Part shown: one piece after another, positions 4,510 to 8,387 of the stretch
Position numbering within the stretch: position 1 is the stretch's first letter
Layout of the letters: every line of letters begins with the position of its first letter
NCBI RefSeq assembly: GCF_019343455.1
Contig: NZ_CP049362.1
Coordinates: forward strand, 2,046,001 to 2,110,000
Direction: 5' to 3'
Length of the DNA: 64,000 bases
Origin: Alcaligenes ammonioxydans
Lineage (GTDB): Bacteria > Pseudomonadota > Gammaproteobacteria > Burkholderiales > Burkholderiaceae_B
The notes under the pieces: model-generated
The model's input: the letters and a program-made list of their open reading frames with translations, nothing else
Database searches by the model: none
Told to the model about the DNA's origin: nothing
Program-made: the position numbers and the translations under genes

Positions 4510-5280
4510 TTAGAGCCGTACCTTATTGAATAATCTGAAAAAATTCTCTGTGCTGGCTTCTTCCACCTCCTTGACGGAAATACCCCGCAATTCTGCAATC
4601 TTCTCGGCCACATGAATGACCAGAGCAGGATTATTGGTTTTACCTCGATACGGAACTGGAGCCAGAAAGGGCGAATCGGTTTCAATCAGCAAGCGGTCCA
4701 GCGGCACCCGTTGCGCCACGTCTTGGAGCTGGGTGGCATTTTTGAAGGTGACGATGCCCGAGAAGGAAATGTAGAAATTCAGGTCCAGGGCCGCCTGCGC
4801 CACTTCCCAGGTTTCCGTAAAGCAATGCATGACGCCCCCCGCAAGCTGAGCCTGCTCCTGGCGCATGATCGCAATCGTGTCCTCACTGGCTGAACGCGTA
4901 TGAATAATCAAGGGCAGGCCCGATTCACGGCTGGCCCGTATATGGGTACGGAAGCGCTCGCGCTGCCACTCCAACGGCTCTTGCAAACGGTAGTAATCCA
5001 GGCCCGTCTCTCCGATAGCCACGACTTTCGGGTCCTGAGCCAGCGTCACCAGCTCCTGCACGGTGGGCTCGGTCACCTTTTCGTAGTCCGGATGTACACC
5101 GACCGAGGCAAACAAATGGGTATGCGGACGGACCAACTCCATCAAACCGGGCCAGTCGTCCATATCGACGCTGACCACTAGCGCACAGCCCACCTGGTTC
5201 TGACGCATCTTATCCAGAATGGCGTCCAGATTTTCAGCAAGTTCGGGAAAGTTAAGATGGCAATGCGAATCAACAAACAT
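4510..5280 (-). CDS. tatD: TatD-family metal-dependent DNase/hydrolase
   Basis: A TIM-barrel amidohydrolase-like nuclease (YcfH/TatD family) implicated in 3'-5' DNA processing and quality control. The start at 5280 gives 256 residues beginning directly with the metal-binding strand FVDSHCHLNF. Other metal ligands are in GETGLDYYR (about residue 92), IIHTRSASEDT and the late ETDSPFLAP. The upstream alternative at 5313 would overlap holB. It follows holB by 17 bp. The holB-tatD pair is widely conserved, usually with tmk and mltG, which supports co-transcription. Confidence 0.93.
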   Translation of the reverse strand: MFVDSHCHLNFPELAENLDAILDKMRQNQVGCALVVSVDMDDWPGLMELVRPHTHLFASVGVHPDYEKVTEPTVQELVTLAQDPKVVAIGETGLDYYRLQEPLEWQRERFRTHIRASRESGLPLIIHTRSASEDTIAIMRQEQAQLAGGVMHCFTETWEVAQAALDLNFYISFSGIVTFKNATQLQDVAQRVPLDRLLIETDSPFLAPVPYRGKTNNPALVIHVAEKIAELRGISVKEVEEASTENFFRLFNKVRL

Positions 5281-5297
5281 GATGAGAGGTACTTTTC

Positions 5298-6347
5298 TTA
5301 AACACGACGACATGCCTGGTGCAAGCGGTCCAAGGCATGATGAACCAACAATTTAGCATTGAGCGGATGATTGCCCAGCGCCTTTTGCTGAGCCAGCCAT
5401 TTGAGCGCTTCGGTAAGGGCCGCCGAATTGGCCTGAGCCGCCAGCGCATCAATCTGTTTTTGCAACGAGGGATAGTAACGCGCCGACTGGGCAAAACCAC
5501 TTAACTGAATATCAACGAACAAACGTTGCCAATGATCGACCCATTCCTGAACCGGAAGTTTTTCCAGCGTATCGGCCAGCGACAAGTCCGCTTCACGGCC
5601 AGCTTTCAAGACACCCTCGATCCAGGCACTGAGCCAGTCCGGACACGGCGCCTGCATCGCCTCACTGGCGCTGAACGCCTTTAAAGGAGCCCCCCCCCAG
5701 GCTGCCAACCAATCAGATGCGTGCTCTAGCCCCTGCTGCTGCAGCCATTGCACCGATTGCTGAGCATCCGGTACCGGCAAAGGCAAGCGGCGACAGCGTG
5801 AGACAAGCGTTGGCAGCAGTCGATCGGGGGCATCGGCCACCAGCAAAAAAACAGTACGATCGGCCGGTTCCTCCAACACCTTCAGCAAGGCATTGGCAGA
5901 CACCAGATTCAAGGCCTGAGCCGGATACACGACCGCGACGCGCCAGCCTCCCCGATGCGTGGCCGTATTGAACCAGTGCTGCAACTGTCGCAACTGCTCC
6001 ACCCGGATTTCCCGAGACGGATTTTTACGGGCTGCCGCGTCCTTGGCCAGATCGCCCTCCTGCATGTCGGGTCCCTGCTCCTCCAAGGCAATCGCATCAG
6101 GACGCAACAGACGCAAATCCGGGTGATTGCCCCCACGCACCCACTGACAGGCCTGACAGTGGCCGCAAGCCAGTCCCTGAACAGGCTGCTCGCACAATAA
6201 ACTGGCTCCAGCCGCCCGGGCGAACTGCGTCTTGCCGATACCGGGCAGACCATGGATCAGCCAGGCATGGGCAAAACGCTCTCGATTACCCAGCCAGGCC
6301 TGAGCCGTCTCGATTTGCCAGGGTAGAAAAGTCAAACTATCAGACAC
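5298..6347 (-). CDS. holB: DNA polymerase III subunit delta prime
   Basis: The stationary subunit of the clamp loader that opens the beta clamp at primer ends. The 349-residue protein has an AAA+ fold with the loop GLPGIGKT (residues 33-40). This loop is intact, unlike the degenerate P-loop of E. coli delta prime. A four-Cys zinc module follows (Cys52, Cys61, Cys64, Cys67). The SRC motif in LVSRCRRL supplies the arginine finger to its neighbour. The C-terminal helical domain forms the collar. In many proteobacteria tmk lies immediately upstream; here the upstream gene is an inverted dNMP kinase. Confidence 0.95.
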   Translation of the reverse strand: MSDSLTFLPWQIETAQAWLGNRERFAHAWLIHGLPGIGKTQFARAAGASLLCEQPVQGLACGHCQACQWVRGGNHPDLRLLRPDAIALEEQGPDMQEGDLAKDAAARKNPSREIRVEQLRQLQHWFNTATHRGGWRVAVVYPAQALNLVSANALLKVLEEPADRTVFLLVADAPDRLLPTLVSRCRRLPLPVPDAQQSVQWLQQQGLEHASDWLAAWGGAPLKAFSASEAMQAPCPDWLSAWIEGVLKAGREADLSLADTLEKLPVQEWVDHWQRLFVDIQLSGFAQSARYYPSLQKQIDALAAQANSAALTEALKWLAQQKALGNHPLNAKLLVHHALDRLHQACRRV

Positions 6348-6483
6348 CGTATTGCCTCAAGGTTGCACATCAACAGGCCTGATTCACGCCAGAAAGACAA
6401 GATGGTCTCCCTTGCCTGAACGGCTCAGCGCACATTGTAATATGAACCGGTAAAATGCCTGCTCCACTACCAAGGATGATGAA

Positions 6484-7293
6484 GTGAGCTTATTGATCGG
6501 GCTGGCCGCCAAAGCGCGTTCAGGCAAAGATACCGTGGCCAATCTTTTGCTGGCCCACTCCCCTTTACTGGCTGCCTATGCCTTGGCCGACCCTGTCAAA
6601 ATGGGCTGCGAGGTGCTGTTTGGCCTGAGTCCCGCCCAGGCCTGGACTGACGACAGCCTGAAAGAAGTCCCTATCGCGCTATGGCAGCGCTCCCCGCGGC
6701 AGTGCTTTCAGTTGCTGGGAACAGACTGGATGCGCGAACGCGATCCCGATCACTGGTTGCGCCGCGCCCAACATCTGCTGAAGTTCGGGCCAGGCGCCGC
6801 CCTGGTTCGCAAACCGCAGGACTATTCGGTCTGGGCCCTGGCTTTGCCCGCTCTTTACGGCTTGTCGGCCGAACAGTTGGACGGCGAGCAAGCCGACCGT
6901 GTGGACAGCTTTTGGGGACTCAGTCCACGTCAGGCCGTTGAACACCTGCGCAGCCGGGTCCTGTCGCAGTATCCCGACTTCGAGCAACGCCGTCAGGCCT
7001 TGCCCCTGCGTGCACCGAGCCACCAGCTACCGGATATGAGCCAGGCACGCTGCCTGCTGATTAAAGATATTCGCTACGAAAACGAAGCCGACTTCATCCG
7101 TCAAAATGGCGGGGAGATATGGCATATTGAACGCCCTGGCAACCCGGTCATCAGCCAGCACTCCTCGGAATGGGGGATCGCGCGTGCCCCGCAAGACTAC
7201 CTGATCCGAAACGATGCCGGCTTGCCAGAGCTGGCAAACAAGGTCCATGACCTCTGGCGCGGATTTACCCAGCGCCACGGCTTGCTGGCGTAA
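6484..7293 (+). CDS. Phage-type deoxynucleoside monophosphate kinase-like protein
   Basis: A P-loop kinase related to phage T4 gp1 dNMP kinase, predicted to phosphorylate dNMPs with ATP. The start is GTG at 6484 with AAGGA upstream; ATGs at 6476 and 6479 run into stops. The 269 residues carry the nucleotide loop ARSGKDT (11-17), the gp1-like LLGTDWMRE (77-85) and IKDIRYENEADF (193-204). A conserved end, HSSEWG then YLIRNDAGLPEL, resembles T4 gp1's ITEAGLP and VITNDGSLEEL. Residues about 124-167 look like a second, degenerate copy of 45-91. It lies between mltG and holB, where tmk usually is, but on the opposite strand. Assignment is by motif, not search. Confidence 0.78.
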   Translation: MSLLIGLAAKARSGKDTVANLLLAHSPLLAAYALADPVKMGCEVLFGLSPAQAWTDDSLKEVPIALWQRSPRQCFQLLGTDWMRERDPDHWLRRAQHLLKFGPGAALVRKPQDYSVWALALPALYGLSAEQLDGEQADRVDSFWGLSPRQAVEHLRSRVLSQYPDFEQRRQALPLRAPSHQLPDMSQARCLLIKDIRYENEADFIRQNGGEIWHIERPGNPVISQHSSEWGIARAPQDYLIRNDAGLPELANKVHDLWRGFTQRHGLLA

Positions 7294-7379: not shown

Positions 7380-8387
7380 CTAACGCTTGAGAATGTACTT
7401 GGCCACGGCCCGGTTATGCGCCGCCAGATTGGCCGAGAACTCGCTGGTACCGTCACCCCGCGACACAAAATAGTAAAAATCGTGCTTTTCCGGATGCAAA
7501 GTCGCCAATAAGGAGGCCTTGCCCGGACTGGCGATCGGAGTGGGCGGCAGACCCGCACGAGTGTACGTGTTCCAGGGCGTATCGGTTGTCAAATCACGCT
7601 TGCGGATACGACCCTCATAGGCTGAACCCATTCCATAAATCACCGTCGGATCCGTCTGCAAAGGCATACCCACGCGCAAGCGGTTCATGAACACCCCCGC
7701 CACTCGCGCCCGATCCTGGCTGTGACCCGTCTCACGTTCCACAATGGAGGCCATGATCAGCGCCTCATAAGGCGTTTTCAACGGCAAATCAGGATCACGG
7801 TCGGCCCATAACTGCTCCAAGAGCTCCTGCTGGGCCAGAAAACCGCGTCGCAAGATATCCACGTCAGCCGTACCCGGAACAAAGACATAGGTATCGGGGT
7901 AAAACAAACCTTCGGGATGTCCGACTTCAACACCCAGGCGGCTTAACAAATCGGCATCGCTGACCTCGCCCAAGGTCTGTCGAACCTGCGGGTTGTTCGC
8001 CAGCGTGTCACGAATGCGCTGATAGGTCCACCCCTCCGGAATGGTCAGGCGGGTCTGCAGCATATTGCCGCTGGACATCCGCTCCATCACTGTCCAGGGG
8101 GTATCACCACGCACCGCCTCATAGGCGCCGGCCTGCAGCGAGGTATCCAGACCCGTCAGGCGCGCCATCCAGACGAAGGCGTCCTCCTGGATATCAATGC
8201 CAGCCTGCTGCATGCTGCGCGCAATCGCACGCGGCCCTGAACCGGCAGGGACCACATAATCAATGCGTTCAGCACTCATGTTCACGGGCAGCTTCTTGGC
8301 CCAATACCAGGCGCCACCCGCGAGAACACAGGCGGCAACCACCACAAGGCCCAACAGGGCAGAGAAGATTTTGACGTTTTTTTTCAT
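7380..8387 (-). CDS. mltG: Endolytic peptidoglycan transglycosylase MltG
   Basis: A membrane-anchored lytic transglycosylase that cuts nascent peptidoglycan and terminates glycan strands. The 335 residues begin with Lys-rich cytoplasmic residues and one transmembrane helix (about 8-28), followed by a LysM-like region and the YceG catalytic domain. The catalytic Glu is Glu217 in SIVERETG, equivalent to Glu218 of E. coli. The conserved stretch MPLQTDPTVIYG and the final KHDFYYFVSRGDG are present. It is divergent from ygfZ, as in many relatives. The expected downstream tmk is absent; the inverted dNMP kinase is there instead. Confidence 0.95.
   Translation of the reverse strand: MKKNVKIFSALLGLVVVAACVLAGGAWYWAKKLPVNMSAERIDYVVPAGSGPRAIARSMQQAGIDIQEDAFVWMARLTGLDTSLQAGAYEAVRGDTPWTVMERMSSGNMLQTRLTIPEGWTYQRIRDTLANNPQVRQTLGEVSDADLLSRLGVEVGHPEGLFYPDTYVFVPGTADVDILRRGFLAQQELLEQLWADRDPDLPLKTPYEALIMASIVERETGHSQDRARVAGVFMNRLRVGMPLQTDPTVIYGMGSAYEGRIRKRDLTTDTPWNTYTRAGLPPTPIASPGKASLLATLHPEKHDFYYFVSRGDGTSEFSANLAAHNRAVAKYILKR

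Follow-up and report, generated by a model that had tools for sequence, protein, structure and literature searches.

A T4 gp1-type deoxynucleoside monophosphate kinase gene in the tmk slot of Alcaligenes genomes and its probable origin from a tmk-splitting island

Thymidylate kinase (Tmk) is, to our knowledge, close to universal. It is a drug target, and in E. coli its gene lies in an mltG-tmk-holB run. In P. putida KT2440, the island-borne deoxynucleoside monophosphate kinase (dNMPK) PP_1964 was shown to be the sole essential thymidylate kinase (Wirth, Rohr, Danchin, Nikel, mBio 2023, PMC10653934). According to that paper, PP_1964 tolerated inactivation only in the presence of E. coli tmk, it complements a tmk-dependent E. 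coli strain, and the paralogue PP_3363 is dispensable. The same text reports tmk-splitting islands in Pseudomonas, Halomonas, Acinetobacter and Psychrobacter, as well as standalone homologues that adjoin holB, with no tmk, in P. granuli DSM 18079, A. faecalis JQ135 and M. lacus LW14. Two histories were offered and the choice between them was left open: the standalone gene is a remnant after loss of the island, or it is an ancestral form that was captured later.

The core finding reported here was already published in 2023; both the phenomenon and the genus are in print (PMC10653934). The Alcaligenes locus resembles that of P. putida in having a T4 gp1-type dNMPK by holB and no intact Tmk; however, PP_1964 lies within a 65-kb island that keeps both tmk halves, whereas in Alcaligenes the kinase gene stands alone. 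The standalone dNMPKs of JQ135, DSM 18079 and Methylomicrobium lacus LW14 are, as in Alcaligenes, located by holB with no tmk and no mobile genes nearby. The paper names single strains, while we cover 10/10 genomes of the genus, the window coming from another Alcaligenes. We also add a rule linking the dNMPK subtype to tmk in 36/36 genomes, an island scar in Pseudomonas, and signs that displacement took place two or more times in the family. A search by title or abstract, with subscription papers mostly outside its reach, found no other relevant paper.

The window is a stretch of 64,000 nucleotides of Alcaligenes ammonioxydans (NZ_CP049362.1), whose genome consists of one contig of 3,774,827 bases with a completeness of 100. 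The following features are considered:

4510..5313, - strand: TatD family nuclease gene (TIGR00010, 291.5 bits, cut-off 206)
5298..6347, - strand: holB, DNA polymerase III delta' (TIGR00678, 204 bits, cut-off 180.6)
6431..6459, no strand: conserved intergenic block, 26/29 columns invariant in 9 Alcaligenes genomes
6472..6476, + strand: putative ribosome-binding site AAGGA, 7 nt before the GTG, identical in 9/9 aligned genomes
6484..7293, + strand: dNMPK gene of the long subtype, 269 aa, GTG start, occupying the tmk slot
6517..6534, + strand: P-loop codons RSGKDT (residues 12-17), invariant in 23 sequences and at least 90% conserved in 46
7066..7086, + strand: DIRYENE motif (residues 195-201), containing D195, R197 and E201
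7380..8387, - strand: mltG, endolytic transglycosylase (TIGR00247, 280.2 bits, cut-off 103.4)

The original prediction described a run of mltG, holB and tatD from which tmk was missing, with an inverted gene resembling T4 gp1 in the gap and reading toward mltG. All of this was borne out. The three neighbours scored over their cut-offs and lie on the - strand, while the dNMPK gene lies on the + strand and points at mltG. In a Pfam profile search, the open reading frame matched PF21448 (DNMK) with 70.5 bits (cut-off 27.1, E 2.1e-19), a score that places it in the T4 gp1-type family. Further matches were to the PHROG 139 family of deoxynucleoside monophosphate kinases (E 5.6e-40) and, among PDB entries, to T4 gp1 itself (1DEK, E 1.6e-8). 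A Pfam scan at E<=10 returned only DNMK and a sub-threshold P-mevalo_kinase match, with no PF02223 (Thymidylate_kin), and an NCBIfam scan at E<=0.001 gave zero matches and so no TIGR00041. In a structure comparison with VIA-align, the model showed the gp1 fold and was nearest to T4 gp1; a canonical Tmk structure was absent among the best 50 matches listed, which in itself excludes nothing. The window gene is a gene for a T4 gp1-type dNMPK.

For the active site, we compared the P-loop and eight further positions, using the T4 residues given in PMC10653934. The RSGKDT P-loop aligns with T4 gp1 residues 11-16. Window residues K39, D195, R197, E201, R217, H226, E229 and N243 are invariant in 23 sequences and match T4 K37, D175, R177, E181, R197, H206, E209 and N223, so that the P-loop and the substrate positions are both shared. 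D195, R197 and E201 align with T4 D175, R177 and E181, which are substrate residues in Table 2 of the same paper. The Pseudomonas dNMPKs in our alignment are, as far as known, ones other than PP_1964. Over structurally aligned residues the window protein and T4 gp1 share 28% identity; in the middle of the protein (about residues 50-190) there is scarcely any sequence alignment. By analogy with the P. putida homologue, the Alcaligenes enzyme would act as a dTMP kinase, making dTDP and perhaps other dNDPs. Upstream of the gene, the block at 6431..6459 may, judging from its conservation, be a candidate promoter region for the dNMPK gene and perhaps for holB too; a strict sigma-70 consensus scan found none.

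The dNMPK gene was found in 10/10 Alcaligenes genomes with one copy each (two profile segments of one frame). It lies inverted between holB and mltG in the 9/9 further genomes of group g1 (Alcaligenes), hence in 10/10 with the window included, and in 2/2 genomes of group g24 (Parapusillimonas-type); judging by named records, g1 comprises strains such as Alcaligenes sp. SORT26, A. faecalis, A. pakistanensis and A. endophyticus, and g24 is represented by P. granuli LMG 24012 and Alcaligenaceae bacterium CAII-53. The window protein is 85% identical to the dNMPK of A. faecalis AU14. None of the Alcaligenes genes has an internal stop, and dN/dS (Nei-Gojobori) ranged from 0.061 to 0.159 over 36 pairs of 9 Alcaligenes genomes, with dS near saturation in the deeper pairs and A. 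endophyticus (L067) excluded because of its distance. These values indicate strong purifying selection on the gene. In a class sample of 369 genomes, dNMPK was present in 8, including the window's own. Since the dNMPK family is also carried by phages, one could imagine a recent prophage gene that landed by chance in the tmk gap and is not conserved. The chance of this is negligible: the same spot with the same core flanks in 10/10 genomes of the genus and a dN/dS of about 0.1 refute it, and the 11 viral dNMPKs that we extracted are proteins of 188-201 aa outside the long subtype.

The genome of the window contains no match to PF02223, and none was found at E<=0.001 in any of the 10 Alcaligenes genomes, the window's own included. 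The same search detected Tmk in 13/14 control genomes and is thus sensitive, not perfect; as one control was missed, a very divergent Tmk could in principle escape it. With TIGR00041 at E<=10, 0/10 Alcaligenes genomes had a match over the cut-off among the matches listed, which were weak and partial and mostly covered the P-loop region (best 20.3 bits, profile 6-38). A custom Tmk profile built from seven proteins, five from the family and two from Pseudomonas, gave in the 12 dNMPK genomes of the family sample a best listed match of E 7.9e-4 over profile positions 2-57 only. Its values of 2.5e-112 and 1.4e-95 on G010 and G063 show only that the search works, because both genomes contribute rows to the profile. 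The thymidylate synthase gene thyA is present in 10/10 Alcaligenes genomes, indicating that dTMP is presumably made, and the cytidylate kinase gene cmk is present in 10/10 as well.

The original prediction had left it between displacement of the cellular enzyme by a phage-derived one and insertion beside a tmk that was relocated or lost. Relocation is rejected, as three profile searches revealed no canonical Tmk in any of the 10 genomes. Displacement with loss of tmk is supported by the same absence, by thyA in 10/10, and by a dNMPK gene that is single-copy, in place and under purifying selection. We are therefore highly confident that the dNMPK is a functional replacement of Tmk, which probably arose via a decayed tmk-splitting island. 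A genus relying on a phage-type enzyme would escape metabolic reconstruction and, perhaps, Tmk inhibitors.

Gene order across the family agrees with this. In 26/27 comparison loci from 26 other genera, picked by their Tmk match, tmk is flanked by mltG and holB, with the same strand used throughout, confirming that the run is conserved in relatives; in the exception (L221), tmk adjoins mltG and a holB match is absent. Among 250 genomes sampled from the family, Tmk was found in 233. The 17 others are the 10 of g1, the 2 of g24 and 5 assemblies of 250-580 contigs (G085, G152, G158, G174, G178), in which neither Tmk nor dNMPK was found and the custom Tmk profile was negative too. An assembly gap is the likely cause in these five; G158 consists of 550 contigs with a completeness of 99, and G174 of 410 contigs with a completeness of 94.

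A scan of one genome per species (84,980 species) gave 37 dNMPK loci, 32 of the long subtype (L095-L126) and 5 short or partial (L127-L131). Six of the 32 are of the Alcaligenes or Parapusillimonas type, and the other 26 come from Pseudomonas, Psychrobacter, Acinetobacter, Glaciecola, Kangiellaceae, Methyloprofundus and other gammaproteobacteria. The C-terminal half of tmk adjoins the dNMPK gene in 21 of these 26, the five without it being L103, L106, L108, L110 and L126. Recombinase-type island genes follow the dNMPK gene in 17/26; the nine others are the same five, L117 with none in a full flank, and L114, L115 and L120 with flanks that are too short. Wherever holB was matched, the dNMPK gene adjoins it in the same orientation as in Alcaligenes.

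In five islands with both ends read, tmk is interrupted within the codons for its conserved DRFTD motif. At most loci the holB-side end reads, in order, tmk half, TTGTTTTCGG-like sequence, GTAAAC, a TATAAT-like box, a second GTAAAC and the dNMPK gene, with variant sites in a few loci. As related dNMPKs lie on islands that insert into tmk itself, these islands suggest the route of displacement. The Alcaligenes ancestor probably took up an island like those of today's Pseudomonas, Psychrobacter and Acinetobacter. Such an island would integrate at the DRFTD codons, destroy tmk and bring its own dNMPK gene at the end facing holB; subsequent loss of everything else, the two tmk halves included, would have left alone a dNMPK that had presumably become indispensable.

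Of 32 genomes searched via the named loci (those of L105 and L122 were not among the 32), 27 contained a long dNMPK. At E<=0.001, both Tmk halves were found as separate matches in 17 of these, the C half alone in 1 and neither in 9, one of which (L115) has a C-half relic seen by tblastn. In five one-contig cases, the distance measured between the halves was 12.6 to 66 kb. No intact canonical Tmk was found in any of the 27. Together with the 12 family-sample genomes, and with three genomes overlapping (apparently identical to assemblies G007, G032 and G066), this makes 0/36 distinct long-dNMPK genomes with an intact canonical tmk, several of them being drafts or MAGs.

The short dNMPK subtype, by comparison, occurs with an intact-looking Tmk in 21/23 genomes (11/11 + 7/7 + 3/5). 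In the 11/11, matches were at about E 1e-44 or better, with the span listed for 8; the two exceptions of the 23 are MAGs with partial matches. These eleven are the genomes of the family sample, outside g1 and g24, that hold both dNMPK and Tmk, and their dNMPKs are divergent (20-41% identity in pieces). Eight of ten proteins from seven of those loci match PHROG families: two dNMPK, four PHROG 210 (function unknown), one anti-repressor and one DNA methyltransferase. Taken together, we consider it rather probable both that a long dNMPK signals the lack of an intact canonical tmk, the short one accompanying an intact-looking tmk, and that the long form serves as a portable spare for the gene its island destroys, making insertion survivable at once and the host dependent afterwards. 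As reported in PMC10653934, P. parafulva NS96 keeps its tmk intact and also carries an unannotated stretch with 44% identity to PP_1964, indicating that a dNMPK of this kind does not always accompany loss of tmk.

A PF02223 match that is weak (22-48 bits) but covers much of the profile was present in 12/27 long-dNMPK genomes. Such proteins are perhaps like PP_3363. Along with weak P-loop matches in every genome, and with a dTMP kinase activity that is assigned to the Alcaligenes dNMPK by homology, they could be taken to mean that the dNMPK only salvages or balances dNMPs and that another enzyme, such as an NMP kinase of broad specificity or some unknown P-loop kinase, phosphorylates dTMP. We regard this as very improbable, because PF02223 detected nothing in any of the 10 Alcaligenes genomes at E<=0.001, the dNMPK gene sits in the tmk slot in all of them, and in P. 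putida PP_3363 is dispensable and PP_1964 is not (PMC10653934).

The standalone loci bear on how the gene came to stand alone. An island-end DNA profile was made from 13 of 18 loci tried, the other loci not fitting the simple pattern, and run on 12 gap stretches adjoining standalone dNMPK genes. L126 (Pseudomonas UBA4617), which has a standalone dNMPK gene, neither tmk half and 7.7 kb between dNMPK and mltG, matched it with E 1.7e-13. The matches of L106 and L108 (P. fuscovaginae) were weak (6.4e-4 and 0.026), and that of L099 (P. granuli) covered part of the model (0.012). At E<=10, nothing was found in the five Alcaligenes stretches (window, L066, L071, L074, L098), L101, L103 and L110. The gap of L106 measures about 950 bp and contains a broken rtcB-like gene, and in L110 (P. 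cremoricolorata) the dNMPK gene ends about 25 bases from mltG. We read this series as island decay down to the kinase. The broken rtcB-like (RNA ligase) gene lies beside the dNMPK gene in both P. fuscovaginae strains (L106:8008-8685, L108:9541-10451).

Alcaligenes shares with the islands the dNMPK gene in the tmk slot, the loss of tmk and the orientation. It has neither recombinases nor tmk halves nor an island end, the last being present in L126 and weakly in L106 and L108: no tmk relic was detected in the Alcaligenes gaps at E<=0.05 (the rows of L088 and L093, which were holB and mltG matches, being disregarded), and no recombinase gene was found beside the Alcaligenes or Parapusillimonas dNMPK. 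This clean locus, with only the partial match in P. granuli, is what would be expected if the standalone dNMPK were ancestral, that is, if recombination with no island involved had put it in the place of tmk in beta-proteobacteria and islands had captured it later, the second scenario of Wirth et al. 2023 (PMC10653934). In a midpoint-rooted dNMPK tree, Alcaligenes also forms one side of the root. When the tree is rooted on the short dNMPKs, however, Alcaligenes is nested in the long subtype. In addition, the standalone gene shares position and orientation with the island gene, the Pseudomonas loci L106, L108, L126 and L110 are interspersed with island-borne genes in the tree, and a scar of the island end survives in L126 and, more faintly, in L106 and L108. 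We consider the ancestral form unlikely. The scar and the separate displacements described below favour the remnant scenario, even though Alcaligenes itself has no scar, and so bear on the question left open in 2023 (PMC10653934).

In a tree of 7 neighbouring core proteins (37/39 rows, two rows with fewer than four genes excluded), g1 and g24 lie apart. Forcing them together was rejected (AU p = 0.00097; 32 rows, five long-branched rows dropped). This separation points to two or more displacements within the family, barring a transfer of the whole locus from one lineage to another. In the dNMPK tree, Alcaligenes forms one group (97-99, starred). For a single dNMPK clade of Alcaligenes and Parapusillimonas, the AU p depended on the long rows L100 and P0028 (0.013 if included, 0.38 if excluded); for this test P0014, a further Alcaligenes row, was removed, and P0022, P0024, P0034, short dNMPKs and near-duplicates were dropped. 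The join of the Alcaligenes clade to L100 may reflect long-branch attraction, which makes the nearest element-borne relative unsure. The five other standalone genes (L103, L106, L108, L110, L126) required 4 label changes on the dNMPK tree, 3 of them forced by starred branches, and 2 changes with 1 forced on a second dNMPK tree with fewer labels. Jointly with the portable-spare reading, we find it reasonably likely that repeated island decay irreversibly swapped a core enzyme in Alcaligenes, in Parapusillimonas and, separately, in P. fuscovaginae, P. cremoricolorata and Pseudomonas UBA4617. The loci would then be a natural record of a mobile element handing an essential core function to its host, in stages: an island with both tmk halves, then an island without them, then the kinase alone.

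Some further observations were made at these loci. The Tmk in the slot of L223 and L236 (G028, G063; g20) and of L232 (G115; g29) is divergent, with 36-39% identity to the g36 Tmk, most other loci being at 51-72%; this suggests another kind of tmk replacement at the locus. The 1.5-kb gap beside the dNMPK gene of strain CAII-53 was considered as an island relic and rejected, as it contains an IS200/IS605-type TnpB gene between holB and dNMPK (L101:6622-7860, - strand); in its relative P. granuli (L099) the holB-dNMPK gap is only 136 bp.

In the islands, the block after the dNMPK gene encodes a 727-aa protein, a tyrosine recombinase, a 357-aa protein and a second tyrosine recombinase (L202:9573-13862, L102:8870-15725). 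A group II intron splitting the 615-aa island recombinase gene was rejected, as Rfam gave no intron match at gathering score in six loci and the gap in L102 holds another ORF of 727 aa. In P. protegens FD6, the first two genes of the block appear to be fused into one 615-aa gene.
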